Source: Pyropia yezoensis
Taxonomy: Eukaryota > Rhodophyta > Bangiophyceae > Bangiales > Bangiaceae
NCBI GenBank assembly: GCA_009829735.1
Contig: CM020618.1
Span: forward strand, 28,744,894-28,808,893
Length of the DNA: 64,000 nt
Reading direction: 5' to 3'
In this document: positions 32,589 to 62,650 of the stretch, in pieces
Position numbering within the stretch: position 1 is the stretch's first letter
Layout: every line of letters begins with the position of its first letter
Notes under the pieces: generated by a model
Database searches by the model: none
The model's input: the letters and a program-made list of their open reading frames with translations, nothing else
Told to the model about the DNA's origin: nothing
Position numbers and translations under genes: made by a program

Positions 32589-32590
32589 CC

Positions 32591-35952: not shown

Positions 35953-35984
<32 letters not shown>

Positions 35985-36071: not shown

Positions 36072-36637
36072 ATGGAGTGTTCTGACCCCCCGCCATCCCC
36101 TCCGCCTTCCGTTGGGGCGGCCAGTCCGCCCCTCGCGGACGACATGGACGTCGAGGACAACGGCCGGGAGGCCACGCCGTCGCTGAGCTACGACGACGCT
36201 CTGCTGGACTTTGGCGACCTTGACGGTCGTGACGACTCGACTTCGGTACCGGTACCGCCGTTGACGCAGCCGCAGCCCGGTGGGGTGGACGAGCCGGGGC
36301 CGGACGGGATCAGCAGCTCCTGTTTTGGCGGCGACGACGGAGCCGGTACCGTCCAAGGTGACGAACGTCCGGGGACTCCCCCGGATGATCGTCCGCCACC
36401 GTGACGGATCACGGACGGGCCCGACGCCGCGCCCGCCGACGGCCCTATATCCCCGTTTTGCACGGTTCAAGAGTCGGTGTCCCTTCGAGACATTGACATG
36501 CTTGGAGAGGGTGTGCGCGCGTCACGGGCCTTCGTCATCGGCTTGTACTACGAACAGTTTAAGCAGACGGGCTACTGCTGGGTAACAGGCTCCCTACGCG
36601 TGTGCGAACAAGGCGGGGATGACTTTGATAAGGACCC

Positions 36638-36706
<69 letters not shown>

Positions 36707-39700
36707 CGGCGGCGACGGCGGTCAACGCCGAAAACGGTACTGGCTCATTGATGGTTACCACCGGTTTACTGCCTTGATGCGTCACCTGAACGAGCGTCAC
36801 CCACTCTCGCGAGCGTCGGAGCTCTTTGCTGTCGTATCCCGTCGTGACGGGCGGCCACTGTCCAGGACGGACATTATCGTCCTGGGCGGCGCCGCCAACT
36901 TTGTCACGGTGCGCACAGAGCCGATGAGTGCGCGTGACCAGCTCACCTGGGCCATTGAGTGGGTGACGGCGCCCAACGACGCCACACTGGCCAGCGCGTA
37001 CCACTGCATCACACCCGGCATGCCGCCAGCGGACCTGGCGAAGGCTGTTGGCTTGCTCATCAAGGAAGCACGCTCGCATGGGGCGGTGCCCCGTAGCATC
37101 ACAACACAAAAGGAGTTGGGAGACGAGTCCCTGCGTAAGCTGCTCAGCTTGGGTGCCGCTGCCGTGACAGAGCGCGGGACCATCGAGCACATTGTCACCA
37201 AGCTGCAGGAGGAAGCCGCCGCCAAGGACAGGAACGGAGCCGCCGGGGGTGCTGCTGCGGCTCGCTCTCGTGAGCCCCGCGGTGTGCGTCGTCGTGCCGC
37301 GCGTGTCGCCGGCGGCCCTGTCAGTGGCGGGGACGACAACGACGACGATGAAGACGACGACGACTGTTACGATTCCGACGATCACGATGGCGTCGACGGC
37401 GTCGATGGCGGTTCACGTGACTGTGGCAAGGGACCCGCCCGTGATGGCCGAGGCAAGCTACTGCGCCAGTGCGCGAACAGGACGCTCGCGTTTGGGGCAC
37501 TTGGGTCCATCCCGTTCCTCCATCTTCCCGGAGTGCCGCCAGCTGAGAGGAACTCTGCCCGTGTGCTGATGGTCGATACGTCTTGGGCGTGGTCCGCGGG
37601 GTTCACAGCAGACGGCCACATGAACCGTCTGACTCGGGGCGCGGACAGCCCGTTTTACTGGTGCGTACTGTTTTTCATCATACACGTCATCAACACGGTC
37701 ACCGCTGAGCGCTTGTATCGGATCACCCGTGGTGGATTGGAGCAGCATCAGCAGCACGAGCCACACACCACGGGGGAGGGGGAGGAGGGGGATGGGCGCG
37801 TGCAGCCTGCGACGGTCGCCAAGGTGCAGACGACCTCGGCGACGGCGGAGGCAAAGTCGTTTCCTGCACGCCACGCACAACTCGCCCTCGACGACAAGGC
37901 GGCGTCGGCGTTGCAAGTGCTGCAGCAGCGCCGGCCGGGCCGCTCGCGGACGCTTCGGCACGAGTTGATCGGCGTTTTCGTACGCCACTACTCGTGCGAA
38001 GAAATGATGGCCACGGTGGAGAGAGTAAATAAGGTCACTGGCCAGCGCAAGACTGTCATACAACACGGAGGCGGGAAGGATGGTGCCCAAGTTCGTCATC
38101 GGCCGTTTATGACTGTCCACTTTGCTGCGTGGGCCAAGGACTTTGACGCGTTTGTCAAGACAGAGCCGCCGCCACCACCACCGCCGCCGCCGACGAGCAC
38201 CATTGCAGAGGACATTGTGGGGACCGCTGCCGCTGCGGCCGCTGCCACAGCAACTGCAGGCAAGGTGCGGCCGGTACAGCAGCAGCAGCCCCAGGTCACT
38301 GTCATTCCCGCTGTGAATTCTGACGTGGGCGGCAACAAGAGCGCCGCCAATGACACCCAGCGGTACGACGGAGACGCCAGAGATCGTGACGAGGCGGACT
38401 GTGGCGGTGGTGGACACGACAAGAGTCACGGCTCCGGCGACGCCGCGGCCTCGCGGTCGGACTGTTTTGAGACGCCCGTGGAGACGGTGCGGCGGCCGCT
38501 CGTTCCCCCCGTCTTGACGCAGGTAGACGACCGGTCGCGGTCATCACCGTCCTCACCGCCGCCGGCCCAGTCGCCGACACGGGCTCTGTCGGCCAAACCG
38601 CCGGAGGCACCTGCAAATCCCGAGGATGCGCGCGCAGCACCAGCAGCAGCACCGGCAGCAGCACCGGCAGCAGCACCTGCAGCAGCACCGGCAGCAGTAC
38701 CGACAACCGTACCGGAGGCAACAACAGCAACAGCATCATCGCGTGCAGCCGAGGCAAAAGCCAGAGGAACAGCTGCGAGCGCCTTGGCGGGTACTGCGGC
38801 TGCGGCTTCGGCTGCTGCCGCCGATTCCGGTGCCAGTGCCAGTACAGGTGCCCGATCTGTTCCGGCGAGTGAGGGTGCTGGTTCTGATGCAGGTGTGCGT
38901 GCAGCAGCAGCAGCAGCAGCAGCAACAGTAGCAGCACCCGAACCAGCACCTGCAGCACCCGAACCAGCACCTGCAGCACCAACACCAGCAGCACCAGAAC
39001 CAACACCGGCAGAGCCTGCACCAGCAGCACCCGCACCAGCAGCACCCGCACCAGCAGCACCTGCACCAGCAGCACCCGCACCAGCAGCACCCGCACCAGC
39101 AGCACCCGCACCAGCAGCACCCGCACCAGCAGCACCCGCACCAGCAGCGCCGGCAGCGCCGGCAGCAGCCGTCGCAGACGTCACGGATACAGCAGCGAGC
39201 GCTTTGGCGGCTGCTGCGGCTGCGGCTGAGGCTGCCGGTGCCGGTCCCCGTGCAGGTGCTCGTGCCGCTGCCGCTGCCGCCGCCGCCGCCGCTGCCGCTG
39301 CCGCTGCCGCTGCCGCTGCCGCTGCTGCGGGTAATAATGGTGGGCCGGCGGATGGCTCGACGACGGCCACCCCATTTCGGAGGCGCCACGCCCGCAGCGC
39401 CGCCAATCGGGCGACGCGACAAGCGTCCGTGGCGGGGGCGGCACACGGCGGCGGTGGTGGGTCCAGACCACTGACCAAGAAGAAAGCGCGCTCCAACCGT
39501 GCGCGCCGTCCGCAGGCCAAGGCGACCGCCAACGCGGCCGACAAGAGCGACGGGGAGTCCAAGCGCACGCCGCGCGGATCCAGCAAGGCCACGCGTGGCG
39601 CGGGCAAGAACCAAGTGGGTGAAAGCCCCGAAGAAGCAGGGCGTGCTCCCTCGGGCGGCGGTGGGGTAGACCCTTCGACGCGGCCGTACACCGATACGGT

Positions 39701-39722
39701 GCCGCCAGTGGCGGCCTCCTGA
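36072..39722 (+). CDS. ParB/Srx-motif protein of the DNA-modification cassette
   Basis: The gene starts at the ATG at 36072 (MECSDPPPS), which matches the start of the 25.9-kb paralogue (MDRSD). One in-frame TGA at 36402-36404 interrupts it. The open frame resumes at once and runs to the TGA at 39720. A 114-nt interval (36358-36471, GT...AG) would remove the stop without shifting the frame. The core at 36550-37230 contains QTGYCWVTGSLRV, a poly-Gly insert, then YWLIDGYHRFTALM. The last is the DGxHR-type motif of ParB/sulfiredoxin-like nucleases and NTPases. The helical sequences SARDQLTWAIEWVTAPNDAT and ITTQKELGDESLRKLLSLGA follow. A second conserved-looking region (37500-38150) contains VLMVDTSWAWSAGF and FYWCVLFFIIHVINTVTAER. 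The tail is Ala/Pro repeats (APAAP pentads, about 38990-39170), poly-Ala and a basic end with nuclear-signal character. In bacteria and phages such domains often accompany DNA methyltransferases. Binding or cutting of DNA is inferred only. Confidence 0.7.
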
Positions 39723-39779
39723 GCACTCGACGCTACTGCGAGGCGGGCGGCGCTTGGTTGCCCTCTACCACCGCCACGC

Positions 39780-42164
39780 TTGGCGGTGGCCGCTACTGGC
39801 GCCGCTGCTGCTGACGAGGAGGAGCAGGAGGACGCGCGCGTGGCGCCACCGCCGGCGCCGCGGGGAGAGGTACTGCCTCCATTTGCGGCGCCGCTGCCGC
39901 TGGAGCACCAGGCGCGGGACTTTCTGGAGCTGGGCGTCTGGCACGACGCGGACGCCCGGGCGAAGGCGTACATGGTCAACGCGGGCGCACGGGTTGCGCT
40001 GGGCGCCAAGGCCGACACAAACGTCATGTCGTCGGGCTGGCCCGAGGAATTCTTGTCCATTTTGGAGACGACGGCCGCGTCAGTGCTTGCGACCGAGCTC
40101 TTTGAGCGCGGCTGGGCGATTCTCCAGGGCGCCACCGCCGTAGGTATGCCTGTCATGCACATGGCCGACGACGACGGCGGGGGCGGCGGTGGGGGTGGCG
40201 GCGGTATCCATGCGGCGGCGGGGCAGCCCTCGCGGCTGCAAGCCCGCCCTTGGGCGGAGTCGGGCACGGGGACGGCGGGACGGGTGTTGAGCGTTGTGGA
40301 CGCGACGCTGCACGAGCTCATGCGCAGGTTTCCTGGGGAGGCAGAGCTGGCGAGACGGGCCAAGCAGGGGCAGCGGCGGGGTGCCAGTGCAAGGCGCAGT
40401 CGGAAGGGCGACACTGGTCGCGTCGCTGCTGGGGGTCGCGGTACTGTTGCGGGTGATACACCCCCCGGTGCAGACGACGGGGGGCTGCACGTGGATGACC
40501 TGTGGTCGCCCATCATCAACACCAACATTGATTCGCTGGACCGCAAGTTCACGAGTCAAGGGCAAGGCCGGCTAACCGTAGGGGTGGACGCGCTTTGCAG
40601 CTCAGACGACAACGAGCGTCACAGCCTGTACCTGTGCAAGTTGGCGGCTGATGTGGGTATGGTGGCCCTGGCGTACAAGGTCCTTCGCGGCCTTCAGAGG
40701 GTTGAAGCGGCACGCCGCGAGCACTCGCAGCTGCCCTACGCCCAGCCCGGTCGGAACCTGATTCCCGCCACGCCCACGCGGCCCGTCCCCGGGCCTACCG
40801 AGCAGCACTTTGTCGGCAGCCGAGACGACGCACTGCCACCGCTTCGCGTTCGTGCTCCTCGGACGGGCTCGAGGGTGCTGCTGACGACTGCCGGCGCAGT
40901 GCCACAGGTCCCGCACGTGGACTTGCCCGTTTGGTCGTCCGCCGAGTGTCGACAGCGTCGCCGCGGTGGCGGCGGCGGTGGTGGGCCGGGCGGGAGCGAG
41001 TGTCGCAAGGGCTCCTCCTCGCACGGGGCGCTTGGTGCCAGCGGCACTATGGACGATGATGGCAAATACGCCGATGACGACGAGGACACTGGCATTGACG
41101 TGCAGGTGGTCTCTGATCCTGTGTACGAGATGCCTCTGACGAGAAGTTTTTTTGCTCTTGCGTCTGGGGCAGACGCGTGTTCTTTGCGCGTCTGGCCGGG
41201 AAGCGTGCTGGCCTTGCAGCGGGAAGCCGACGACCCCACCTTACGCGACCAATTGGTAATGCCCATGACGTTGGTCGTGCCGCGCAACTCTTTCATCATT
41301 GTTCGCAGTGAACTTGTGCACGGCGGCACAGGCGCCAAGGATGACGTGTGGCGAGCGCACAAGGCCCTCGCGGAAGTGAGTTACCCGCGCAGCATCCGCC
41401 TCCACATGTACCTGCAGCACGAGGACGACCCGCTGTACGATGCAGTGTTTCTGCCTCTACGTGCAGGCGTGTTTCTATCCCCCGATGACGTGGCAGCCCG
41501 CCGCCGTCTCCGTGAGCGCGGCCGGTGCACCGACTGCGGCCAGCGTGTCCCCGAAAAGAAGGGTGGCGACGGTGACGGCGACGGTGACGGCGACAGCGGC
41601 AGCGACGTTGGCAGCGACAGCGGCAGTGACGGCGGCAGTGGCGTCAGCAGCGACAGCGACAGCGGCAGCGACAGCGGCAGCGACAGCGGCAGTGGCGTCG
41701 GCAGCGACGTCGGCAGCGACGTCGGCAGGGACAGCGGCAGTGGCATCGGCAGCGACGTCGACAGCAACAGGGGCGGCGGCAGCGGCAGCCGCAGCGGCGG
41801 CGGCAGCGGCAGCCGCAGCGGCAGCGGCAGCGGCAGCGACAGCGACAGCAACAGGGGCGGCGGCAGGGGCAGTCGCAGTGACGGCGGCAGTGGCGTCAGC
41901 AGCGACAGCGACAGCGGCAGCGGCAGCGGCAGCGACAGCGGCAGCGGCAGCGGCAGCGACAGCGACGGCGACAGTGACGGCGACAGTGACGGCGACAGCG
42001 GCAGCGACTACGGCAGCAACAGTGACAGCGTAAGCGAGTACGTCCTCGGCGCCGCTGACGGAACAGGCGGGCGTGTCGGCGACAGGAGTCCTGGCGCCCA
42101 ACGTGTTACTTCAGCTGTTGGTCGTGCCAGGGGCAAGGGGCGAACAGCAGCGCCGCCGCAATAA
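39780..42164 (+). CDS. 2-oxoglutarate/Fe(II) dioxygenase-like protein with Ser-Asp-Gly tail
   Basis: The frame is open from 39723, directly after the stop of the ParB-like frame and in the same phase. No ATG occurs before 39972, although [20 protein letters not shown] already looks coding. It may therefore be the 3' part of one gene joined by splicing or readthrough. The double-stranded beta-helix signature is VPHVDLPVW (H at 40914, D at 40920, the HxD iron ligands). After about 135 residues comes [15 protein letters not shown] (second His at 41319), then SIRLHMYLQ (Arg at 41397, a candidate 2-oxoglutarate ligand). The strand motif PGSVLALQ precedes these. [10 protein letters not shown] is a small Cys pair. 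Positions 41570-42035 encode a long Ser/Asp/Gly repeat. Such enzymes hydroxylate or demethylate proteins, RNA or DNA bases, and TET/JBP-like members travel with transposons in fungi. The substrate is unknown here. Next to a methyltransferase, DNA base oxidation is a reasonable guess. Confidence 0.6.
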
Positions 42165-42639
42165 TCCCGCGCCGTCAGCGGCGGCGGTGGCCGCGGCGGC
42201 GGCGGCGGCGGCGGTAGAGCCAGAGACAGCAGCCAGCCGGCCGTCGAGGTGCCGTCGAGTGTAGCACGGCGGCGGACCCCACGGCCCGGGCCCGAGGCCC
42301 GCGCACTGGAAAGCTCAACGACACCCCGGCGAGCAGCAACGTCCACGTCTGTGACCGGGACGACGCCGGCAACGGGGCCACCGCAGCGTCCCGGACTCCC
42401 TGGACGACGGCCTTCGCCGGCATCCGCCCTCACCCCTTCAACGAGAACACCTTCGCGATCACCACAAAGCCGACGGGGTGCCACAAAGCCACCGAGTCGT
42501 GCCCCGCCGCTGGACGCCGCCGCACTCTCTGCGAGCCTTGCCGCCAGAATTGCCGCCGACCGTGACAGAGTTGGGCGTCGCCCCCCTCCTCTTGCTCAGA
42601 GGCACCCGCCTGGTAGTGGCGGAGGTCCCAGTGGCAGCC

Positions 42640-42689
<50 letters not shown>

Positions 42690-43121
42690 GGCGGCCGCGG
42701 TGGTAGCTCCCGCTCCGATGGTGGTGGCACCGGCCCGGCGACTAGAGTCGCTCGTCTGGCGTCTGGAGGTGTCAGTCACGGTAGCGTGCGCGCCAGTGCC
42801 GGTCGTGGCCGCGGCGGTGGAGGCAGCGGTGCGAGTAGCCTGGCCGGTCGCCCTGGGCATGGTGCCCGATTGCGACCCGGCGTCCGGGGGGACGGCCTCG
42901 ACAAAGGGGAAGGCCGGAGCGCGAGTGCTGGTGGCGACAGTGCCCGAGGAGGTGGTGGTCGCCGCACCGAGGATGGTGGTCGTCGACTCGGTGGTGGTAG
43001 TGGCGGAAGGAAGCGCCCACGTGAGGACGATGAGACGGACGGGGACACGGGGCGGCCTCTGTCACGGACCGGCTCCGGCCGGCCGGGGGATGGAGGTCCT
43101 TCCAAGAGGCGCCCGATTTGA
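42165..43121 (+). CDS. Ser/Arg/Gly-rich frame continuing after a TAA stop
   Basis: After the TAA at 42162-42164 the same phase stays open to 43121 and ends in a basic segment (RKRPREDDETDGD...SKRRPI) typical of a nuclear-signal-bearing C terminus. The first in-phase start codon is a GTG near 42249. It is Pro/Ser/Arg-rich, then poly-Gly. It could be the true C terminus of the dioxygenase protein with the TAA being a disabling mutation or intronic, or a separate gene, or noncoding. A second frame over 42478-43173 is hydrophobic Ala/Val-rich and looks like a shadow. Confidence 0.35.
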
Positions 43122-43671
43122 AAAAGGCGTCCGCATGGGCCTCAGGCGGTCGCGCAGGGAGTGTGTCTGTTGACATGCGGGATGCCAGGGGAAGCTAGTT
43201 TGTGTGGCAGTGGTGGTCGTGGGGAGTGGTGCTGTTTTCTGTTTTGCATTTGTTTGTTTCCTGTGTTTGAACGACGGTGCGGGGGGATGACGGGGGGGTG
43301 TGTGGGTGGCAGGGTCGCCGAGGGCGCAAACCTGGGAACATCACATAGCTGCTCTGTACGTACTCGTCGGTTTCAATTCCCATTCAGTACACATATGGAT
43401 ATCTTTCTTGATACAGTGACGCCGCACAGGATAGATATCGATTGACAAGTGCATTCCGTTTTGAATGTATGAACTTGCGGCTACACAGAAGCGCGCCAAA
43501 TGTCGGTCGACCCCGACACTCTGTCCGTGGGTGGCTGCGGTGCACACGACCCACCGCACTGCGACGCGGAACCGGTGCGCACGACCCACCGCACTGCGAC
43601 GCGGAACTTGCCGCGATCGTTTGCGGAGCTTCACCCGCGCCGTGGCTCCGAGTGCAAGCCCGGCTGCCCGC
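43122..43671. repeat. Spacer with 35-bp tandem repeat upstream of the methyltransferase gene
   Basis: 43160-43450 is AT-richer than its neighbours and may be the promoter. At about 43537-43606 a unit containing CACGACCCACCGCACTGCGA is present twice in tandem (start offset about 34-36 nt). The frame of the methyltransferase gene is open through this repeat, but I place the start at 43672 because the sequence upstream is repetitive. Confidence 0.5.
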
Positions 43672-43981
43672 ATGGCCGACCTTTTGCCACCCTCGTGGCT
43701 CGTCCTCAGCGTCACGCGCATCGTCACCGCTTGCGCTGAGGCCGTGGTGGACGCCGCCGGTGATGGGGCGGACGCCCCCGCCGCTGACGCCGCCGCCATT
43801 GCAATTGGCGGCGCCACCGCCACCGGGACCGAACGCGGTGCCGGCGACAAGAGGTCTGGGCCTGTGGAGGGTCGTGGCAACCAGCCCGCTACCGCGGCGA
43901 GGCGCCCGACAAAGCGGCGCGCCGGGGCGCCAAACGCTGTCCGAGACGATGAGCGGCGCGGGACAACCGGCGGCGGCGTCG

Positions 43982-44012
<31 letters not shown>

Positions 44013-47000
44013 GCTGGACTTTCAGGGCGGATGTGGTTGCCGGCCTTCCCCTATTGCATGCATGGACGTGCACGACGCATATCCCGCCCGCGCTATCACT
44101 GTCGGCCTCGCCGCGTTGCGCGACCTGTTTGTGCTGGACAAGGTGCGCATTGAGAAGTTGGACAATCCCGACGGCAATGGGGGCGGCGGCCCGGTAGCTG
44201 CTGCTGTGCGGTCAGCGTGTGGAGGTGATAACAGTACGGCTCCGGGAGTGGCCGCACCCCGTCCGGCTGATGCGACACTCGAGGACGCGACGTGGCCGGC
44301 GGTCAAGCTTTGGGCCATCACGCTCACGCGCCCCCCTCCTCGGCACGCCGTTCAAGGCCAGCAGCAGCACCATCAGCAGCAGCGGCCGCCCCTCTCGTGG
44401 TCTGATTGGCCTCCCGAGGCCGAAAATGCTGTTGCCGGTACGTCCCCGACGTCGGGCCGCGTGCTCCACACGCCGCTGACGTGGTGGATGGAGGGTTCCC
44501 GCATCAAGCGCATGTACAGTGCGGTGTGGGTCCTCAAGCGGTTTGTGTCTTTGCCCCCGCTCGGCGGCGGGGGCGGCGGGGACGCGCGCGGGCGGCGTCC
44601 CCGCCCGTCATCCGCGTGGCTCCGCGTGCTCGCCCTCCGCTCCGGGCGTGTGGACGTGTCACCGCCAACGCGGCCGACGCCGCAGTTGCAGTCGCCGACG
44701 CGACGGCCACTGCCACCGCCGCTGCACGAAGAAGAGACCCGCGGTCTGCCCGGCTGTGTCGTCCACATGACAGACGCCAACCACGACGACGACAAAATAC
44801 GACAGACAAACGTTGCTGTTGTTGATTGTACGTCGGGCGACCCGTCGGTTGACGTCCGGGTGTGGCAAGCGGTCCTTGACGTTGGGACGCTGAAAGAAGC
44901 TGCCCTGGACGTGGCCGCCCTGGCCGCGAGCTTACGTCATCGGGACGCATGTGCCAGGCACCCGGCTGGCTGCGGGCATGGGGAGGAAGTTTCGCGTACC
45001 GCGGCGTACGCAGCTGCTGCGGAAAGCGCCGCGTGCCAAGCCAGGCAAGAGACAAACACAGCCGGTCAGGAACAAACCACAGGAAGCGCCGCGCCGCCCG
45101 TTCTGCATCGCCCGGGTCCCGGACAGGGTCGGCATGTGCCCCACTCGACCGGTCGGCACCACGAGTCTTTTGTGACGTCGCAGCGCTCGCGCTTGGCGTC
45201 GCCGCAGCCGTTGCCACTGCCCGGCCGGCCGGGGTGGCAGACCGCTCGCCGGGGCGCTGCCCGGGGCCTGCAGCGAGTGGGCGTGCTGACGCCAGACAAG
45301 CGGTTTCTTATAGCCATTCTGGAGGGCGCCCTCGGCACCGCCGCCTTTGAACGCGGCTGTGGTGCCGTTGATGGCGGCATGTGTGCTGGCAGCGCCAGCG
45401 ACTCTGCCGCCAAACGCCAGCCCTGTCGTTGTGAGCGACTGCAGGCTGCTGCCGAGATGGAGCCTTTCGAGCTCTTACTGTGGCTCTCCTCGCTGCACCC
45501 GCTTGTTGCCGCCGACGCGGAAGAGCGGCGGCGGCTTGCACCACAGCGGCAGCAGCCAACAACACTACCATTCCGCCCCGCGCGCCCGTCATCGACACCG
45601 ACCGGCAAGCTGCAAGGCACACTTCCACCACCAATCGCCGCGCCTGCGGTACACAGCGACGGGCGCAGGCAGGCCTTTTCGTCATGGTGGGCCTGCGCGT
45701 CCGCTGCTGCGGCTGCCGGAGCTGAGCCTCCCTCACATGGGCGAAAGCGTCCTCGTTCCGCCGTTGGGGGTACGGGCGTCCCAAGCAGCCCTGAACAGGG
45801 TGCTGACGACGCATGCGCTGCGCACCGGGAGGGGCGCGCCTTGTTGGCACTCAGCGCCACCGTTCGATGTGCTGTGACTGCCGTCGTGCGCTCCTGGGAT
45901 GCCGTCGCAAGGCGCATCGGCTTTGAAAGCATCGAGAACTGCCTCGCCCCGTACCTCTTGTGGCACTCACGGTCGTGCGCGTTTACGACGCTGTCAGAAC
46001 CGCAAGGTACTGCCGGCGTATTCGCGCCCGCTGCGCAGCGGTTTGACATTGCCCACGGGCTCCCCCCCCCAACTTCCAGGGCCGACAGGGACGGGACTCC
46101 CGTCTGTACAGAGGCACTGCACCGCACCGCCGTCGCGGATGCACAGCTCCGCATGGCTGCTGCTCATTTTGTCTACCACATGGGGGAGGTGACGAAGCCC
46201 GAGCGACTCGCCGACGCGGCAGCCGCTCTGTTGGGAGCAACTGCAATGCAGCAGCCGCAGCGGGGCCAGCCGCAGCGAGGACAGCATCTGCAAGCGCCTT
46301 CCCGCCCAGCCACCGCCACGGCGGCGGGTGCTCCACCACCGGCGGCGGCTGCGTCGGCGGTTGACGCGCTTCCTGCTGCCGTCAATGGGGAAACAAAGCC
46401 GGGCTACTTGACAGCCACTGCATTTGTGGGCAGAGGACTGGCAGCACGCTGTCCGTGGGAGGTGGTGGGGGTGCCCCCAGTGCTAAACCCGACCGTCCGA
46501 GGCCTAACCGGCTTTCGGCCCGTCGTCGTCGATGCCGCGGGGGCAGCAGCGATGGGCACCATCCCGCCTGCGACGCCGGCCACCGCGGAGGAGGGGGGGG
46601 CGGGGGGGGGGGGCGCCCCCGGGAGGATGTGTGCTTGTCGCGTGGAGGACGCAGGCGCTCGTGTGAGCCTGGTGAACCGCGCTCTTGCGCGCGACGCAGG
46701 CGTCGCCGCAGCGCGTGCGGCGTTGGCCGCGGACATACACCGGGGTGGCACGCCTGTCGCTGCTGCTGCTGTTGCAACACACGCCGCTCCCCGTGTGTGT
46801 GACGACGAGGACGATGGCGGCGGCGTGGGTGGTGGGCGTGCCACGCCCGTCCATGCCGCTGGGGGGCAAGGCCAGCCAGGACCGCGAGCAGCACAAGCAG
46901 CACGAAAAGCACCGGCAGCTGCGCTGAGGGCGCAGCCGGCAGCACCATCGCCTGTACCATCAGCAGCACCAACAGCGCCGGCCAGACGAGCGGCGTCCGT

Positions 47001-49839: not shown

Positions 49840-50130
49840 GCGGGACCCGACCTTGTCCACGTCCGCGGGCAACCGCAGGCGGGGAGCCGCCCACGGCAAA
49901 GTCTTTCGCGGACGCGGCTGGCCGGATCCCACCCGGCCGGGTCGCCACCTATCCATTATGTGTGCACCGGCCACCCGGGACGTGGCAGTCGGGCCGGGTC
50001 GCCGCCTATCCATTATGTGTGCACCGGCCACCCGGGACGTGGCAGTCGGTGGTGGCCACGGTAATTAAAAGAAAGCACATTAAATACAACAATCGATAAC
50101 AAAGCACGTTAAAATACAACAATCGATGCT
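49840..50130 (-). repeat. Element repeat block, copy F (inverted) with AT-rich tandem repeat
   Basis: It has the opposite orientation to copies A-E. On the minus strand, two tandem core units (CCACGTCCCGGGTGG...CATAATGGATAGG, about 49948-50045, offset about 56 nt) are followed by GGATCCGGCCAGCC and GACTTTGCCGTGGGCGGC. At the outer side, 50075-50128, a 28-nt AT-rich unit (TTAAATACAACAATCGATA) is repeated twice. Together with copies D/E it brackets the ParB-dioxygenase-methyltransferase genes as inverted repeats. A G run of about 31 nt lies at 49810-49840. Confidence 0.8.
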
Positions 50131-53196: not shown

Positions 53197-53309
53197 CTTT
53201 GCCGCCACTCCCGCCGCCACCGCAGACGGCCGTTGTGGCGCCGGTACGAGGGACCGGTCTGTAGTTGATGGTAGATGAAAGGGGGGGGGGGGGGGGGGGG
53301 GGGGGGGGC

Positions 53310-56010
53310 GCACGGCAGTGAAGAGGGGGAGAGTGTGGGAGAGGCGGGGTGGAGGATCGGCGGCCGGCCGGGGGGGAGCACGGGCGCGGCGGCTCTGTTG
53401 GGGGAGGGGGCCAGGTCGCGCCAGCACCGGCGGCGCGGTTTCTTTAAACCGCGCCTCCGCCGCTGCTGGTGTGCTGCTCCCAAGCCGCGCCCCCACCCCA
53501 CGGCCGCTGATTCTCTGCCGTGCCTTTTTCCCCTCTTCCCCCCCACCCCCTTCCCCCACCCCCTCCCCCCGCAGGTGGCAGCGGCCAAGGCGGCGGGTTG
53601 TGTGGCGGTTGCGGCGACCGGACCGGTGCGTTTGTTGTGGGCGGAGAGGGGGGCGTGAGGAGGGGGGGGCGTGAGGAGGGAGGGGCGTGAGGAGGGGGGA
53701 GAGGTTGGGAGGGGTGGGGCGGAGGATCGGCGGCCGGCCGGGGGGGAGCACGGGCGCGGCGGCTCTGTTGGGGGAGGGGGGCAGGTCGCGCTAGCACCGG
53801 CGGCGCAGTTTCTTTAAACCGCGCCGCCGCCGCTGCTGGCGTGCTGCCCCCAAGCCGCGCCCCCACCCCACGGCCGCTGGTTCTCTGCCATGCCTTTTTC
53901 CCCTCTTCCCCCCCACCCCCTTCTCCCACCCCGTCCCCCCGCAGGTGGCAGCGGCCAAGGCGGCGGGTTGTGTGGCGGTTGCGGCGACCGGACCGGTGCG
54001 ATTGTTGTGGGCGGAGGGGGGGGCGAGAGGAGGGGGGGGCGTGAGGAGGGGGGGAGAGTGTGGGAGGGGTGGGGTGGCGGATCGGCGGCCGGCCGGGGGG
54101 GAGCACGGGCGCGGCGGCTCTGTTGGGGAGGGGAGCAGGTCGCGCCAGCACCGGCGGCGCGGGTTTTCAAACCGCGCCGCCGCCGCTGCAGGTGTGCTGC
54201 TCCCAAGCCGCGCCCCCACCCCACGGCCGCTGATTCTCTGCCGTGCCCTTTTCCTCTCTTCCCCCACCCCCTCCCCCCCCCCGCAGGTGGCCGCCAAGGC
54301 GGCGGGTTGTGTGGCGGTTGCGGCGGTCTGTGTGGTGCGTTTGTTTTGGGGGGGGGGGGGGGCGTGAGGAGGGGGGAGAGTGTGGGAGGGGCGGGGTGGA
54401 GGATCGGCGGCCGGCCGGGGGGGAGCACGGGCGCGGCGGCTCTGTTGGGGGAGGGGGGCAGGTCGCGCCAGCACCGGCGGCGCGGGTTTTCAAACCGCGC
54501 CGCCGCAGCTGCAGGTGTGCTGCTCCCAAGCCGCGCCCCCACCCCACGGCCGCTGATTCTCTGCCGTGCTCTTTTCCCCTCTTCCCCACCTCCCCCCGCA
54601 GGTGGCAGCGGCCAAGGCGGCGGGTTGTGTGGCGGTGGCGGCGGCCGGACCGGTGCGTTTGTTGTGGGGGGGGGGGGCGTGAGGAGGGGGGAGAGTGTGG
54701 GAGGGGTGGGGTGGAGGATCGGCGGCCGGCCGGGGGGGAGCACGGGCGCGGCGGCTCTGTTGGGGGAGGGGGGCGGGTTGCGCCAGCACCGGCGGCGCGG
54801 GTTTTCAAACCGCGCCGCCGCCGCTGCTGGCGTGCTGCCCCCAAGCCGCGCCCCCACCCCACGGCTGCTGGTTCTCTGCCGTGCCTTTTTTGCCTCTACT
54901 CCCCCACCCCCTTCCCCCACCCCCCCTTCCCCCCCCCCCCGCAGGTGGCAGCGGCCAAGACGGCGGGTGGTGTGGCGGCGGGTTGCGACCGGACCGGTGC
55001 GTTTGTTGTGGGCAGAGGGGGGGGCGTGAGGAGGGGGGGGGCGTAAGGAGGGGGGGAGAGTGTGGGAGGGGGGGAGAGTGTGGGAGGGGCGGCGGTGGAG
55101 GATCGGCGGCCGGCCGGGGGGGAGCACGGGCGCGGCGGCTCTGTTGGGGGAGGGGGGCGGGTCGCGCCAGCACCGGCGGCGCGGTTTCTTTAAACCGTGC
55201 CGCCGCCGCTGCTGGCGTGCTGTCCCCAAGCCGCGCCCCCACCCCACGGCCGCTGATTCTCTGCCGTGCCTTTTTCTTCTCTTCCCCCCCACCCCCTTCC
55301 CCCACCCCCTCCCCCCGCAGGTGGCAGCGGCCAAGGCGGCGGGTTGTGTGGCGGTTGCGGCGACCGGACCGGTGCGTTTGTTGTGGGCGGAGGGGGGGGC
55401 GTGAGGAGGGGGGGGCGTGAGGAGGGGGGGAGAGTGTGGGAAGGGCGGCGGTGGCGGATCGGCGGCCGGCCGGGGGGGGGCACGGGCGTGGCGGCTCTGT
55501 TGGGAGAGGGGGGCGGGTTGCGCCAGCACCGGCGGCGTGGGTTTTCAAACCGCGCCGCCGCCGCTGCTGGCGTGCTGCCCCCAAGCCGCGCCTCCACCCC
55601 ACGGCCGCTGGTTCTCTGCCGTGCCTTTTTCCCGTCTTTCCCCCCCCCCCCCCCCCGCTCCCCCACCCCCCCTTCCCCCCCCCCCGCAGGTGGCAGCGGC
55701 CAAAGCGGCGGGTGGTGTGGCGGCGGGTTGCGACCGGGCCGGTGCGTTTGTTGTGGGCAGAGGGGGGGGCGTGAAGAGGGGGGGGGCGTGAGGAGGGGCG
55801 GCGGTGGAGGATCGGCGGCCGGCCGGGGGGGGGCACGGGCGCGGCGGCTCTGTTGGGAGAGGGGGGCAGGTCGCGCCAGCACCGGCGGCGCGGTTTCTTT
55901 AAACCGTGCCGCCGCCGCTGCTGGTGGGCCGCCCCCGAGCCGCGCCCCCACCCCACGGCCGCTGGTCCTTCCCCTCGCTCCTCATTCACCCCTTCCCCCG
56001 CCCGCTTCCC
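53310..56010 (+). repeat. Eight-unit tandem array in the divergent Ulp1-helicase space
   Basis: Eight units start, by the anchor CTCTGTTGG, near 53393, 53763, 54118, 54440, 54755, 55139, 55495 and 55848 (spacings 315-385 bp). Each has GGATCGGCGGCCGGCCG, the anchor, CAGCACCGGCGGCG, and a palindromic GGCGCGGTTT/AAACCGCGCC or a close variant. Then come CACGGCCGCTG, a pyrimidine tract ending CCGCAGGTGGCAGCGGCC (shaped like a 3' splice site), GGCGGGTTGTGTGGCGG and GACCGGACCGGTGCGTTTG. A G run of about 28 nt precedes it (53281-53308). Open frames inside it follow from the repeats, so I do not call genes. Confidence 0.9.
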
Positions 56011-56116
56011 CCACAGGTGGTGGCCCAGACGTTGGGAAGTGGCGGCCGCTGGTGCGTCTGGCGGCACAGCCCGCAGGTGGGGGGCGGCAACGAGGTCGGT
56101 GGGGCCGCTGGCGGCG

Positions 56117-56541
56117 ATGGCGGTCACACCACCGGCGGCCGAGCCGGTGGCTGACCCGGCGGCCGTGTCGGCAGCGGAATCGGTCGCGTCGCCGGTGGTC
56201 GTACCCGCCGCGTCGGCGTCGGAGGTGGCTGACCCGGTGACCGGGCCGGTGGATGTGGCGGGTGCAGTGCCGACGGTCGTGGCTCCGGCGGCTCCGGCCG
56301 AGCCGCCGCCCGCGTCGGCGGGCATGTCAAGGGCGGCGTCGGCCGAGGCGTCGGCGGTCTCGCCGGCTGAGCCGGCCGTCGCGGTGTCGGGCACGTCAAC
56401 GGCGGCGGCGTCGGCGGGCAAGTGGACGGTGCCGGCGGACGCGGTGGCGGTCGCGGTGCCCGTCGTGTCGGCGGGCGCGGTGCCCGGGACGATGGCCGCG
56501 TCGGCCGCGCCAGCGGGTGCGGTGCCCGTCGTGTCGGCGGG
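56117..56541 (+). CDS. Ala/Val/Pro-rich frame leading into the assembly gap (possible helicase N terminus)
   Basis: It starts at the ATG at 56117 (MAVTPPAAEPVADPAAVSAA), directly after the last array unit, and runs open into the N block. It is built of Ala/Val/Pro/Ser with repeated VPVVSAGAVPG-like units. The opposite strand is also open and low-complexity (Ala/Thr/Asp/Gly), so the strand is uncertain. If real it could be the N terminus of the helicase protein, but the gap prevents a phase check. Confidence 0.3.
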
Positions 56542-57041
56542 NNNNNNNNNNNNNNNNNNNNNNNNNNNNNNNNNNNNNNNNNNNNNNNNNNNNNNNNNNN
56601 NNNNNNNNNNNNNNNNNNNNNNNNNNNNNNNNNNNNNNNNNNNNNNNNNNNNNNNNNNNNNNNNNNNNNNNNNNNNNNNNNNNNNNNNNNNNNNNNNNNN
56701 NNNNNNNNNNNNNNNNNNNNNNNNNNNNNNNNNNNNNNNNNNNNNNNNNNNNNNNNNNNNNNNNNNNNNNNNNNNNNNNNNNNNNNNNNNNNNNNNNNNN
56801 NNNNNNNNNNNNNNNNNNNNNNNNNNNNNNNNNNNNNNNNNNNNNNNNNNNNNNNNNNNNNNNNNNNNNNNNNNNNNNNNNNNNNNNNNNNNNNNNNNNN
56901 NNNNNNNNNNNNNNNNNNNNNNNNNNNNNNNNNNNNNNNNNNNNNNNNNNNNNNNNNNNNNNNNNNNNNNNNNNNNNNNNNNNNNNNNNNNNNNNNNNNN
57001 NNNNNNNNNNNNNNNNNNNNNNNNNNNNNNNNNNNNNNNNN
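56542..57041. other. Assembly gap, 500 N
   Basis: Exactly 500 N, which is a placeholder length, so the true distance is unknown. It probably removes part of the repeated Ala/Val/Pro sequence and the start of the helicase gene. Confidence 1.
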
Positions 57042-60000
57042 ATGGCAACCGCCGTTCGACATGCCCTTCGCGGCCCGGGTTTGGCAAATCTGCCTCGCGA
57101 CAACCTCGAGGCACTCGTGGACATGTTTGTCCTCCCCGTTATGGTTCCTGACGTGTGGCGGGCAAAGAACAACCATCCACCGCCTGGCGGTGCGGGCGGC
57201 GGCGGTGGCGGCGCCCACACAGATGCTGGTGACCGGCCGGTCTGGGCGGAAGCGGCTGCGTCTCACCGCCCCTGGTGGCCCTGCCGTCCCGGCCTTGGGC
57301 GGTCCTGGGGGCCCTGCGGGTCCGGCTGCGATGCCGTCTTCCCGTTCATTGGCGTTGACCCCCCCCCCCGCGCGGACTTTCGACACCCTAGGGCATACGA
57401 GCCGCCGGCGACGCTTCCCCGGCACGATGCGCATGTTGTAGCGGGCGCTGGCAGTGGTGGTGGCCAGGAGCTCGCCCACTTCAGCCGCGAGATGGTCGCT
57501 GCTGTCGGCGCCGTCTGCTCGAAATGGCTGCGCGAGCGCGGGCCGCTGGTCGATTCTCCTTCCTGGCCGGAACAAGTGCGGTTTTTCCGTACCGCCTGGT
57601 CCATGGGCGTCTGGCCACCCGAGGCCCAGCGCTTCCTGCTCGACGCATGTGCGACAGACACTGCCACCGCGTGCAGCAGGCGGTGCTGGCGGGCAAGGGT
57701 GGTACTGGAGCGCCCCAGCAGCCGTTAAAACTGCACACCCGCCTGTGGTCGCATCTGGTCGAGTCGGTCTTCGTACCTGCCGTCGTGGAGCGGGGTGGCG
57801 GTGACGACGAGCCTGTCCCGGCCGGTGCGGGCAGCCCTGACGACGTTGCCCTGCTGATGTCCATGCCAGGGACGCTGGCAATGTTGCCGACGGACTTCTT
57901 CGATGCTTTTGAAGAAGTCAAGGCGTGGGGAACGGCCATATGTGACATGGCGGCTTTGCTCTTCCCAACCGTTCTGGGACACCCGGGCGCTGCTGCTGCT
58001 GCCGCCCCGGCTGCGGCCCTGTTTTCACGTTTTGCGAGCGTCACTGCCTCGGACACGGGCGTCGGGTGGCTGGTGGCGCCCAGCTCAAAGTTCCGACTGT
58101 CCGCCCGGCACGTCATCCGTCGCCTCGCCGGTGTGGGTGAGCGGGGGGGCGGTCGGTCTGATTCGTGGTCCGTCATGGACCTGTTGGATGGGTGCTCACC
58201 CGTCCTGCCCGACGGGGGGGGGCGCGGTGACTCCGCCTGCGAGACCACCAGCGCTGCCGCCCCGGGTCCGCCTTGTGGTGGCCCGCGACCTTTTGACGCC
58301 CTGCGCGTCATCGAAAACGCCCTGCACTTGCTGGATGTTAGTGCGCGCACTGCTCGTGCGGCTCGTCACTGGAACGGCATCCCCCTGCAGCTGTTTGCCG
58401 TAAGTACGGCGTTTGTGCGGGGCGGCCGACAGGTGCTGACGGACGTGAGCGCGGGGCCCCCGGCTGCGGCTGTGGGCTCTCAAGGCGATTCGGACAAAAT
58501 GTCAGAGGGTGGGGCGCTCGCCCGTGTCCTGCACCTGCTCATGCGGCTGAGCATCCACCGAGACGTGTCGCAAGCACGGATTGTCATCCTCTACGCGCTC
58601 GTCGGGTGCCTCGCCCGATTCGCCGATCCCGCTGGGTGCTCCACCCATTTTGACATCTTGGACGCGGGACACATCGCCCCCGTTGTCAACGAGTGGGTTG
58701 ACTCGCTGCCGAGCCTTTGGGAGGTTGCCGTCGGAAACGACAAGGCGGCGCGGTCGCAGTACAGCTGGGTGTACTATGCGGCCATTTACAACCTGGGGAG
58801 TATACCGCTTGCGTCTGGTGTGCGGGCATCTCGGAGGGCGCTGGCCAACGCAGCGATTGCCTGGTTGGCGTCCCCCTCGGGTATGTCGCCCTGGATCGGA
58901 CGAGATGGGGAGAATACCTCTCAGGCCCTGCACAAGCTGAGGAGTTTGCTCTGTCCGCCTGCCAAGCCTGGCAAGCGGGTCAGCCCCCTGGTCGAACAAC
59001 TTCGTCAGCGCATCGACGAATTACTCGGCGGGTCTGCTGCACCAGACGACACTGGGGCGGGTGCTGCGCCAGAAGACGCTGGGGCGGGGGCTGCGCCTGC
59101 CGATGAGGTAGGTGCCGGGCCAGGTGCCGACAAAGATGGGCGGCCTCCCCCAGCGCCCGACGCGACCATGGCGATTCCGTCCGGTGACGGTGACCCCGAC
59201 GGCATAACCATTGGCGACGACACGGGGGACGGAGTCCAGTTTGTGTGCTACCTGCACGCAGTGGCGGTCCCAGACAATGTTTTGGCTGCGCAGGCCGTTT
59301 CCCCTGCGTATGATGCGGAACCCTGCAACGTCATTGTGTTCATTGACGACGACGATGACTGGAATGACGCAGAGAACGACGACGTGACTATCGTCAGTGT
59401 GGCCCGAGTGGTCCGGGCCGGCCAACTGGTCGGGCAGCGGCGTACGTCCTCCGCCACTGGGGCGGCCCCCCGTGTGGCAGTAGCTCAGAGTGCTGCCACC
59501 TCTGTCGCGACGGTAGCTGCCACCTCCTCCGCGACGGCAGCCGTCCCAGGCGGGCCCTCTACGCCAGAGGTTTCTGTTACCGCTGCTGCTCCCGATGCTC
59601 CATCGGCGGCGGGTATAGCCACAGGCGCGGTGGATGCTGTGGCTGTGGGTGCTCCTGGTGTTGGTGGGGCTCCTGCGGGCACGGCGGCCGTGGCCGACGC
59701 GGGTCTTGGCGGAGGTGCACCTGCTGAACTTGGTACTGCTGCAGCAACCGACACGGCGGGGGTGGCTGCGGTGGGCACGGCAGTGGCTCGGGGGGAGGAG
59801 CCCTCTCCCGCTTTGCCTGCAGTTGCAGACGCGGGGGCGGCAGTTGTTGGAGGTGGGACTGCCGGCGTGGGAGGTCCTTGTATCGGTTCCCCGGCTGGTG
59901 GGGGGGACGCGTCTCCCACTGCAGCACCTCTGCCCGCGGCGGCGGCGGCGGCGGCGGGGGGTGGTGCCAGCCAGGCCAGTCCTCCCGCACTGTGTGGTGC

Positions 60001-62650
60001 GGATGGTGATCGGGTGGCGCTCGGTCAGTTGACGCTCTGTACGTCCGAGTCGGGGTGGAAGGGTGTCCCAACCCACCTGCGCCCGTCCCCGTTATACGCA
60101 AGAGGACCTGGGGGCCACTGGCAGGCCATCGTTGTGGCCACCTTGTGCCAGCTCGCCGCCCGCGGTACAGAGGCGGTGGCGCAGTCTATCGAAGGCAGCA
60201 GCAACAAGGGCCATGGCAGCGGCGGCGGACGCAGTGGGCGCGTGACCACGTCGTCATTGTGCTCCCGCTTTGGCGTGGCTCGCATCGACGCGCCCATCAC
60301 CCTGTCGTCGCCGCAGGTGGGGGGCTCCATACTGGACGACCCGCGGGCGTGTCGCATGTGCAACGTGCTCGTGCGTATGCCCGCCCCCCGGGGTGGTCCC
60401 CCCGGTGGGGGCGGCCGCCACCACCGCCGCCACAAGGACCGCGGGGGAGAGTGTCAAGTGGACCCCACAGACGCCACCCCGGGTGATTTGTGTGCCTTTT
60501 GGGTACCGGAACCCGTCGGCTCGGTGTGCAGCACCCCCGTGGACGCGGTGTTTATTGGCCGCTGCGGGGACAAGGAGGGGCAGCCCGGCGGGGGGGTTGG
60601 TGGCCCACCGCCCCCGGGGGCAGGCCAGTGGTGGGTGGACAAGACGCCTGGCCCGGGGCTGGACGAGGGGGTCGATGACGCCGGCACGGCGCGCCACGGT
60701 TGCGCATCCAGTCCCCCCCGGCGGTGGTGGTTTGCGGTGCGTCGTTCAGACGTGCAGCGGGTGCTCCATCGCCGGACGGCGAATGTGGTCGTCACCCTGT
60801 CTCATAGTGTCCTGTCGGACAGCCGCGAGTTTGGCGGCCTCGGCCACTGGGGCCTTCTTCCGCCAGTCATGCAGAGGGCGCTCGCCATCCACGCAACGCC
60901 TCCGCACGGGGGACAGCAGGTGGTACCTGTACCGGCACCGGGGCCTCCCCCCCTGCAGAGTGCTCCTCCACGCTACGCCCACCTGGACGAGTTCCAGTGG
61001 CGCGCAGTCGATTGCATGCGCCGGGAGCTGCTGTCGGACGAGTGTGACGTGCAGCTGGTGACGGGCCCCCCCGGGACGGGCAAGACACGCGCCATTGTCT
61101 CCATGGTGGACATGGTACTTGGGACCCTGCCAGACGGGCGGGTGCTGCTGACGTCGCGCACCAACACGGCGTGCGACGAGCTGTTGGCCGCAGTGCACGA
61201 GTTGTTCTGTCCGTCGGGGGCTGCCAGTCGACACGGCGTCGCGAAACCCGATGACGTGACGCTCCTCCGTGTGGGTGAACCCCCTCCGGATGGCCACCGT
61301 GCCAAGACAACGCACATTGACGCCGTGGTGGACGAGCACCTTCCTGTCGCCTACCCGTCCGTGACAGCCGCGGTGGAACGGGCAAGGGCACGGGTGGCCG
61401 ATGTGGGCCGCCGTGTGGATCGTTCCCGCGCCCAGGGTGCAGAGCCGGGCGCGGGTGGGTCACGAAACCTCCTCGAGGAATGTGCCGATGCGGAGCAAGC
61501 CCTGGAGGCTGCCCTGCGTCGCCAGCAGCGTGCGGAACGGGAGCTCCGCAAGCGCATCGTGGGCGGCGCGTCCGTCATTGTCACAACCACGTCAACGTCG
61601 ACGGGGGCGCTCGTGGGGGCTCAAGGCTTTGACGCCATTATCATTGACGAGGGTGCGGCAACAAGCGTCCCTGCGTCTGTCGCCGCCATTGTTCGCGCCA
61701 AGCGGGCGGGGCGTGCGGGTGGCTTGTCAGATGAAGAAGAGGACGGTCATCCGGCAGAGCGGACCAAGTGCATTGTCCTTGTTGGCGACAATGCCCAGCT
61801 GAGGCCGAGCGCCGGCATGGAGTACAGGGGCGAGACACGGCCGATGGCATCCAGCGTTTTTGAGCGGCTCGCCCGGTTTCTCTCCGCTTGCGTCATCCTC
61901 TCCGTGCAGTACCGCATGCGGCCGCTGTTATGGTCCCTCCTCCGAGAAGTCTTTTACCGGCACATTGGCATATGGTCGGACGGGCGCGGGCCCAAGGCCC
62001 GCCATGAGGAGGGGTTTGGAACACCCGCGTGGCTAAACCATCCGAGTCGGCGTATTCGCTTTGGAGGGCTGCAAGTGACAGACACCTCCCGCCTGCCGGC
62101 CAACGATCGGGCGCACAAGTCGGGTTCCACCACCCCCAACAACAAGAGCCTGATCAACGTTGCAGAGCTTCGGTTGGTCGAGATGGCTCTTACGGATCTA
62201 CTGCGGGCGTGGGCGACGTCCAGCGGGGCTACCAAGCTCAAGGTGATGCTCATCACCCCGTACACTGCGCAGCGGAACAAGCTGAAGGAAGTGGTGCAGT
62301 CGATGAGAGACAGCGGGCGGCTGCCCCGCAGACCATGTGCCGACGTCAGGGTGTCCACCGTGGATGGCTGCCAAGGCGCTTCTGTGGACTGTGTCATACT
62401 CTCCCTCGTGCGGTCAGAGCCTGGGGCGCCACCCGGCGGGAGCACCGACTTTTTGTCCGACGAGCGGCGCGTGAACGTCATGATGTCGCGGGCACAGAGC
62501 CATCTCCACGTGATTGGTGACATGGACTACCTTTCAAGCTCTGGGGGTGTGTGGAAGAGCTGGTGGGACAACGTCCGCCGTAGGTGGAGCCGTCCAGATC
62601 GACGGGACCGCGAGCACATCAACATTGTGGCTCCCGACAGGGTGTACTAG
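57042..62650 (+). CDS. UPF1-like SF1 helicase of the element, with one internal frame change
   Basis: After the gap, 57042-57728 is open in one phase and looks coding (LANLPRDNLEALVDMFVLPV, ELAHFSREMVAAVGAVCSKW, WPPEAQRFLLDACATDTATA). Near 57640-57728 the coding sense moves to the -1 phase, open from 57524 to 62650 (GAPQQPLKLHTRLWSHLVES onward). This is a frameshift or a missed small intron. The C-terminal third is a complete superfamily 1 core. The motifs are LVTGPPGTGKTRAIVSM (Walker A, 61064), FDAIIIDEGAATS (motif II, about 61635), CIVLVGDNAQLRP (III), SVQYRMRP (IV), MLITPYTAQRNKL, VSTVDGCQGASVDCVILS (V) and DERRVNVMMSRAQSHLHVIG (VI). DEGA replaces the usual DEAA/DEAS. The order and spacing are of the UPF1/SEN1/MOV10 type, so it should unwind nucleic acid with ATP. 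The N-terminal ~1000 residues have Ala/Val-rich low complexity (59450-59980) and no recognised domain. Confidence 0.85.

Follow-up and report, generated by a model that had tools for sequence, protein, structure and literature searches.

Within a 64,000-nucleotide stretch of the genome of the red alga Pyropia yezoensis (C1:28744894-28808893, where C1, C2 and C3 are contigs of the assembly; the whole stretch is referred to below as the window), we find one copy of a family of very large mobile DNA elements, dispersed through the genome in multiple copies of about 25 to 63 kb each and bounded by sharp common ends. Their genes follow a fixed order: a ParB-like domain fused to a 2-oxoglutarate/Fe(II)-type (2OG) dioxygenase-like domain, a DNA methyltransferase, a convergent Ulp1 protease (in one subfamily only), a UPF1-like helicase and a Fanzor-like gene. 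We read the whole as a dispersed giant DNA element that probably moves in trans and carries a chromatin-modification cassette, through which it would promote its own expression and evade silencing, and we put the probability of this reading slightly above one half, at about 0.55. The original prediction, made from the letters of the window, had described a self-modifying cassette of five genes, from a ParB-like gene to a helicase. An in-frame motif search finds all five at their predicted places, and both the repeated mobile element and its DNA-methyltransferase writer are borne out below. The limits of the cassette had been drawn too narrowly, however, as the element extends from 22046 to 70148; the prediction also missed that the ParB-like and dioxygenase parts are one protein, that other copies have a SET domain joined to the methyltransferase, and that a Fanzor-like gene and the right end lie past the window.

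The element is delimited by its termini, TCCTGRNGGGGAAAGG on the left and ACCGATAGTT on the right. Left ends (TCCTGR...) come in two related types, TCCTGGTGGGGAAAGG (A-type) and TCCTGAGGGGAAAGG (W-type, that of the window copy), and right ends close with ...ACCGATAGTT. In a search with the A-type left end, 23 of 71 matches start within four bases of one point; with the W-type, 26 of 44 start within seven bases, and only three of these 26 reach the end of the 1.2-kb query. When the query was taken from the sequence right of the Fanzor-like gene, 17 other copies matched its first bases; 16 of them stop within one base of each other, the remaining one 20 bases later. All 14 right ends that were read carry a ACCGATAGTT-like sequence followed by unrelated flanks, and AGTT closes 13 of them, copy D having TGTT; on the left, AGTT stands two or three bases ahead of CCTG in 10 of the 11 ends read, the eleventh being without terminus. 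Copy A has AGTTAG at both ends, and in other copies four or five bases agree between the ends. AGTT may be part of the element and not of the target, since most left-end matches start at it. The termini also form an asymmetric inverted repeat, with the left copy at position 1 and the right copy 38 nucleotides inside; for the A-type left end, 2 and 2 of 1000 shuffles score as high.

Other copies span 48.2 kb (A), 51.5 kb (D) and 63 kb (both G and the copy at C2:19.52-19.58 Mb), and those of the second subfamily 48.9, 54.9, 59.1 and 59.6 kb; second-subfamily copies of about 59 kb lie at C2:7.50-7.56 Mb and C3:20.27-20.33 Mb. A short copy, 24.8 kb, is without a detected methyltransferase or 2OG match, and for B (73 kb), C2:10.73 Mb (47.8 kb) and C3:25.73 Mb (49.5 kb) at least one end was inferred, not read. 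The first 300-460 bp from window position 22046, with the W-type terminus, occur on short sequences as well, some of them 97-99% identical (40 scored among 680 first-look candidates), which suggests recently active short non-autonomous relatives.

The genes of the cassette recur across the genome and recur together. As the genome search scores best candidates only (for the helicase, 53 of 352), the counts are lower bounds, and missed partners may be artefacts. The helicase has at least 55 matches at 53 loci, the 2OG open reading frame (ORF) at least 88 matches (50 loci after merging), the methyltransferase profile at least 38 loci and Ulp1 at least 36 matches; 13 other copies of the 2OG ORF are 87-97% identical over 290 residues or more, the distant relatives mostly 30-50%. 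Into the co-location test went all 38 methyltransferase, 88 2OG and 55 helicase matches, 19 of the 36 Ulp1 matches (17 loci after merging; the 17 dropped were weak, mostly below 60% identity, among them one 32-residue piece at 94%, C2:13163598), the first 36 of 146 matches to the Fanzor-like region, and 37 left ends (33 of 71 A-type and 4 of 44 W-type). A 2OG match on the same strand precedes the methyltransferase by at most 14 kb at 23 of 38 loci (random mean 0.12, maximum 2), is paired with 10 of 17 Ulp1 loci (0.11, maximum 2) and is found upstream within 70 kb at 30 of 53 helicase loci (0.81, maximum 4). A helicase follows downstream of the methyltransferase at 19 of 38 loci (random mean 0.39), and the Fanzor-like region follows within 12 kb downstream of the helicase at 30 of 53 (0.13); left ends are accompanied by a helicase in 19 of 37 cases (0.75, maximum 5) and by the Fanzor-like region in 16 of 37 (0.46). 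The original prediction had taken the lack of a second locus with this gene combination as the sign of a chance neighbourhood of host genes. Such loci are many, and with multi-copy matches, collinear copies and co-location far above random, we reject the chance neighbourhood and regard its probability as negligible.

Five of the other copies, A to E, were taken as 40-kb stretches. Each aligns collinearly with 18-31 kb of the window, interrupted by gaps; DNA identity in the main blocks of the alignments is 86-97%, and the order ParB, 2OG, methyltransferase, Ulp1 is kept. Together with the window copy these five belong to family 1. The second subfamily, family 2, read at C2:12163001-12183000, has cassette proteins about 28-45% identical to those of the window; its Fanzor-like region is close, and its helicase is 94% identical in the C-terminal part and 57-77% in the N-terminal part. 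The Ulp1 catalytic part was not seen in this copy. Elsewhere, family-2 copies have the same right end as family 1 and share its A-type left end.

The methyltransferase gives the cassette its predicted writer. A profile search agrees with the beta-class N6/N4 enzyme of the original prediction (N6_N4_Mtase, PF01555, 2.9e-8), and motif IV (DPPYN, 47308) lies upstream of motif I (FAGTC, 48844), which is the beta-class order. The window copy is without the C-terminal SET domain, a predicted lysine methyltransferase domain: compared with copies A, B, C and E, it lacks 1306 bp at 49298 (1297 bp compared with D), and SET motifs are present within the segment lost from the window in all five of these family-1 copies. 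Copy D holds methyltransferase and SET in a single frame of 2385 residues, and the family-2 copy has a methyltransferase-SET ORF of 1502 residues, its SET match (1.9e-5) above the cut-off. Beyond this genome, the fusion is found in protein P0022 (SET 6.8e-7), with P0012 just below the cut-off (0.00032); the PF00856 match exceeds the cut-off in the family-2 copy and in P0022, and GxG and GEELxxDYG motifs agree with a SET-domain lysine methyltransferase. The same fusion in proteins from other sources argues that it is no accident of this genome. A related Pyropia vietnamensis protein, P0017, stops within this region and has no match to SET; by eye, it has GxG- and GEEL-like motifs.

The ParB-like and dioxygenase-like genes are both present as predicted, and they prove to be one fused gene that an in-frame TGA splits in the window copy: copies A and B read through this site, and family 2 has a single ParB-2OG ORF of 2012 residues. 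The sequences indicate that the ParB-2OG and methyltransferase-SET fusions exist in family 1 also. We base the identification of the two domains on motifs that both subfamilies keep, namely the GxHR box, which in ParB is CTP-binding, and the HxD, His and Arg residues, and on sub-threshold ParB hits. The HxD, His and Arg are kept in the window, in copy B, in the family-2 copy and in the metagenome protein P0006 (48% identical). The ParB part of the window matches the family-2 ParB region in BLASTP at 2e-10, and the latter gives sub-threshold hits to PHROGs ParB (0.0037) and NCBIfam DGQHR (0.036). An alignment search recovered three proteins: two come from metagenomes, and the third is a 387-residue record of Pyropia yezoensis with 99% identity to the window. 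In a protein search with the family-2 ParB-2OG protein, none of the 7988 candidates scored reached E<=0.001. More distant 2OG and methyltransferase matches lie near chromosome ends (C1:43.55-43.58, C3:29.31-29.38, C1:0.23 and C1:1.70-1.74 Mb), some scoring equally on chromosomes 1 and 3; they are possibly a third subfamily.

Of the remaining genes, the Ulp1 protease stands as predicted in its catalytic part (Peptidase_C48, 1.9e-15), while the part of its ORF upstream of 53318 enters a tandem repeat and is not native. The superfamily 1 (SF1) helicase is confirmed by Pfam AAA_11 and AAA_12, and its best Protein Data Bank (PDB) matches are UPF1/NAM7, then DNA2, SMUBP2 and SEN1. The break between the window and the other copies at 53318 led us to consider whether the helicase is a separate host gene or element; this is ruled out, as it is found close to many copies in either subfamily. 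The Fanzor-like ORF has the second part of the published Fanzor/TnpB motif, D-X(125,275)-[TS][TS]XX-C4 zinc finger-X(5,50)-RD (PMC3627910), namely the TS, the C4 zinc ribbon and the RD. In copy A, a long alanine-rich ORF lies right of Ulp1 (31716-37307, +), its C-terminal stretch PIN/NYN-like by eye (VSGDRGL), and next to it a gene of about 400 residues (37651-38871, -) that has a relative in the family-2 copy; the window diverges before this place.

Table 1. Features of the window copy of the element, in window coordinates.
Feature	Position	Strand	Details
Giant element, window copy	22046-70148 (48,103 bp; in window 22046..64000)	+	Right end past window edge, C1:28815041
AGTTCG flank of left end	22040..22045	+	AGTTCG again at 70145-70150, across right end
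W-type left terminus (TCCTGAGGGGAAAGG...)	22046..22110	+	Half of asymmetric inverted repeat; partner 38 nt inside right end
Second ParB-like ORF	25188..26024	-	BLASTP to main ParB domain 2e-6 and 9e-4, two blocks (short similarity)
Paralogous gene, copy 1 (inverted pair)	26324..27211	+	54% identity over 212 aa to copy 2
Paralogous gene, copy 2 (inverted pair)	27933..28952	-	Partner of 26324..27211
Dispersed repeats within 28873..34200	28873-29470, 31866-33471, 34103-34200; also 26128-26462		Repeated inverted at 49863-50061
ParB-like part of ParB-2OG gene	36405..39719	+	GxHR box at 36750
In-frame TGA splitting ParB-2OG gene	39720..39722	+	Window copy
2OG/Fe(II)-type domain	39723..42161	+	HxD 40905, distal His 41307, Arg 41391
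Beta-class N6/N4 DNA methyltransferase ORF	43465..49671	+	Pfam N6_N4_Mtase 2.9e-8; phrog_67 1.1e-10
Ulp1 (C48) protease, convergent	50662..53318	-	Peptidase_C48 1.9e-15; His 51141(-), Cys 50808(-)
Tandem array	53318..55964		Tandem Repeats Finder: period ~370 bp, 7.5 copies
UPF1-like SF1 helicase	57392..62647	+	AAA_12 1.8e-34, AAA_11 1.1e-22; Walker A 61064
Fanzor-like ORF, 1450 aa	65614-69966, past window		Right of helicase; CCHC knuckle, DPGR motif, TSQACSEC...CYTC, NRDDVAARN

The left arm of the element holds further ORFs (Table 1). The second ParB-like ORF has no Pfam match, and the first gene of the inverted pair gives sub-threshold Pfam matches only, the best being TFIIB repeat (0.22) and virion RNA polymerase plug (0.051); in the A-type left arm of copy A, an ORF at 9084-10478 (-) shows by eye a GATA-type zinc-finger motif (C-X2-C...C-X2-C). 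In the family-2 copy that was read, an array related to the tandem array of the window stands on either side of the module. Copy E (C1:35385001-35425000) has its right arm split by an insertion of about 9.4 kb with terminal direct repeats of about 470 bp, resembling a long terminal repeat retrotransposon, and a sequence similar to this insertion lies right of copy C. Left of the element, the window carries a large host ORF with a homeodomain (7696-13545, -; 1.9e-10) and a host gene for a pyridoxal-phosphate dependent enzyme (1932-3593, +; PALP, 1.3e-50). Long C or G runs are frequent throughout the window, and Rfam has no matches at gathering scores in window positions 20000-64000.

A number of observations weigh against our reading. 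No 2OG partner was detected at 15 methyltransferase, 7 Ulp1 and 23 helicase loci, which is due in part to pieces missed by the profile and to the scoring limits. The copies are also decayed. In the window, there are the TGA at 39720, the missing 1.3 kb that code for SET, and a break at 53318 of the homology to all five copies A-E, past which the sequence passes into the tandem array of about 370-bp units; with it, all five of those copies are broken somewhere. Motifs are lost in copy D (the ParB box, the HxD and His of 2OG, and methyltransferase motif I), in C (the 2OG His and methyltransferase motifs IV and I), in B (methyltransferase motif IV) and in E (the 2OG HxD, and the His and Cys of Ulp1). 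The bias in codon position between family-1 copies is weak: third-position ratios are 1.38 for ParB (p 0.01), 1.12 for 2OG, 1.20 for the methyltransferase (p 0.0011) and 0.91 for Ulp1, to be compared with 1.18 and 1.56 in two control stretches and 0.71-1.93 in left-arm ORFs. This weak bias suggests that family-1 copies drift nearly neutrally after insertion, and conservation appears to be visible mainly between the subfamilies.

Other points against it concern the identity of single parts. Failure of the profile searches on the ParB-like and dioxygenase genes was the other outcome that the original prediction had set against itself, and here it fares less well: the two ORFs of the window give no Pfam family at E<=1, and family 2 lends weak support, to ParB only, an assignment that draws on sub-threshold hits. 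The dioxygenase has no match in Pfam, PHROGs or NCBIfam and no hit in a PDB profile search, and the structure models of the ParB and 2OG domains are unusable (predicted local distance difference test scores of 36 and 38). In 2OG/Fe(II) dioxygenases, those of the TET/JBP kind included, the HxD...H...R triad sits on a double-stranded beta-helix. We also considered whether the tandem array holds parS-like sites for ParB, which is ruled out, as it contains no recurring perfect palindrome of at least 8 bp. In the Fanzor-like ORF, the spacing from D to TS is about 400 residues, beyond the published 125-275, and PF07282 stays below the cut-off at 0.014, which is why we call the gene Fanzor-like; PDB searches with the protein returned glycine-linker and low-complexity matches only. 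Finally, the inverted repeat at the W-type left end of the window is weaker, being equalled in score by 14 and 17 of 1000 shuffles, and no transposase domain was found in the ORFs scanned, which make up part of the element.

We suspect that the element moves in trans, probably by a rolling-circle-like route, as its ends resemble those of Helitron2 and no transposase was found inside; a transposase is possible in the remaining parts of the longer copies. The closest competitor takes the same resemblance further and sees a non-autonomous Helitron2-type element, on which the Rep-helicase of ordinary Helitrons acts in trans and in which the cassette is a passenger without any self-marking. The Rep domain (PF14214) does occur in the genome, with 22 matches, the best at 2.2e-30, AGTT is fixed at the ends, and the terminal inverted repeats are asymmetric, as described for Helitron2 (PMC3627910). 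None of the 22 matches falls within the 13 spans checked, however, and the nearest is 113 kb off; hairpins at the termini score no higher than those of shuffled sequence (z-scores from -0.5 to 0.8); and the retention of the same gene set in two subfamilies that are only about 30-45% identical argues for a function of the cassette and against passenger cargo. We consider this alternative possible, yet clearly less probable than an element that uses its cassette. Considerably less likely is a giant element of the tyrosine-recombinase kind, Crypton- or Starship-like, that integrates at an AGTT core: the non-palindromic AGTT at both ends, the asymmetry of the ends, the size of 25-63 kb and the cargo genes would all suit it, but none of the 13 genomic Phage_integrase matches (PF00589; the profile could miss some recombinases) lies inside the 13 spans checked, the nearest being 270 kb away, and Pfam scans found no recombinase (76 ORFs of window 20-35 kb; 96 of 114 ORFs, two right-hand tiles of copy B). 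By these two profiles, neither a Helitron Rep nor a tyrosine recombinase is contained in those spans. The tyrosine-recombinase loci are a separate element type, several of the 13 matches lying in frames near 1400 residues and some standing in series about 5 kb apart (C1:39.06 Mb). EnSpm elements have CACTA ends, and termini of this type define the EnSpm/CACTA group; the ends described here are not of the CACTA type, and no En/Spm transposase was found in the ORFs scanned.

Two further explanations start from the gene content. Giant and Polinton-like viruses can encode Ulp1-like proteases, methyltransferases and dioxygenases, so that some gene types overlap with those of an endogenous virus remnant, and Fanzor is found in large double-stranded DNA viruses, too (PMC3627910). 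A viral origin is nevertheless very improbable: the Pfam-scanned ORFs contain no viral structural (capsid), packaging ATPase or DNA polymerase domain (the full-length copies having been read only in part), IMG/VR scans gave no locus for the dioxygenase and a single one, at 38%, for the methyltransferase, and identical sharp ends at dispersed sites are typical of a transposon. More conceivable, though still unlikely, is an addiction or homing system similar to restriction-modification, where the Fanzor-like protein, as an RNA-guided nuclease, would cut unmarked sites while the methyltransferase protects the element. The Fanzor-like region downstream of 30 helicase loci and the 2OG match upstream of as many, out of the 53, would agree with it; the idea is a purely functional inference, however, and the Fanzor-like region also occurs where neither a methyltransferase nor a 2OG match was found (e.g., C2:27905560-27930379).

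Self-marking appears the likeliest function, judged from the combination of genes: the methyltransferase-SET fusion and the ParB-linked dioxygenase-like domain suggest that the element marks and unmarks its own chromatin. In such a scheme, the ParB domain would tether the dioxygenase domain to DNA, while the methyltransferase-SET protein would write an amino-methyl mark, N6-methyladenine (6mA) or N4-methylcytosine (4mC), along with a lysine-methyl mark on the chromatin of the element itself. The dioxygenase could then remove or edit a methyl mark, either the host's or the element's own, and Ulp1 might strip SUMO-dependent silencing factors; helicase and Fanzor-like nuclease may serve replication or movement. 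The net effect would be that the element stays expressed and evades silencing. A bolder version, which we put forward tentatively and with distinctly less confidence, is that of a two-layer epigenetic system, the first known on a eukaryotic mobile element, in which one protein, methyltransferase-SET, would write both the amino-methyl mark on DNA and the lysine-methyl mark on chromatin, and another, ParB-2OG, would spread on DNA outward from a ParB site and oxidise methyl marks, the two being combined with an RNA-guided nuclease and a helicase. If true, a cultivated alga whose genome is assembled to chromosome level would offer many natural copies in which to study transposons that do not only erase epigenetic marks but write them. 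The family would also bear on two questions: whether 6mA or 4mC plays a real part in eukaryotes apart from the MT-A70 pathway, and why an amino-methyltransferase should be paired with SET.

The claim that no described element combines all these genes holds within the literature seen. No report of the full set was found in the literature, where the source texts were available in part and Petroll 2025 and Iyer 2011 are known only as cited; the pairing of ParB and methyltransferase on algal transposons is, however, already published (PMC12477816). Sola1-1_Ec32, a 21.5 kb transposon of Ectocarpus, has an accessory protein with ParB and N4/N6-methyltransferase, and such proteins are cited for green and red algal transposons as well (PMC12477816). 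The likeness is close: a giant DNA transposon of an alga bears ParB-like and N4C/N6A methyltransferase domains, and self-marking is proposed for it as well. In Sola1-1_Ec32, however, the two domains form one protein of 1104 residues beside a Sola transposase (PMC12477816), whereas here ParB is fused to a dioxygenase-like domain and the methyltransferase to SET, Ulp1, the helicase and the Fanzor-like gene are added, and a transposase was not found. A dioxygenase on a transposon, with a proposed anti-silencing role, recalls the TET/JBP genes of fungal DNA transposons (PMC12730594); the domain described here differs in having no profile match, in its fusion to ParB, in its red algal host and in the company of a methyltransferase-SET writer.

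Giant DNA transposons with accessory genes have precedents in red algae: giant EnSpm elements are described from Chondrus, with 16-20 kb and 4-5 ORFs (PMC6431247), and from Bostrychia (Petroll 2025, as cited in PMC12477816). Ours differ in their size of 25-63 kb and in their asymmetric, AGTT-associated ends, and an overlap with the elements of Petroll 2025 is possible. With Helitron2 and the Fanzor1-bearing Helitrons, known from Chlamydomonas (PMC3627910), they appear to have in common asymmetric terminal inverted repeats, a fixed tetranucleotide at the insertion point and a Fanzor-like gene. In Helitron2 the 5' copy of the repeat is at the end and the 3' copy 20-30 bp inside (PMC3627910), a range that the 38 nucleotides observed here exceed; further differences are the size, the gene content and a UPF1-like helicase, with no Rep-helicase found inside. 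The last comparison is with the bdelloid rotifers, in which a bacterial-type amino-methyltransferase likewise sets a mark, 4mC, in a eukaryote, and for which the text of the paper mentions SETDB1 23 times (PMC8885841). The rotifer system belongs to the host, whereas in Pyropia yezoensis the writer and SET are fused and borne by the element, so that the 4mC/SETDB1 theme would recur from the side of the parasite.

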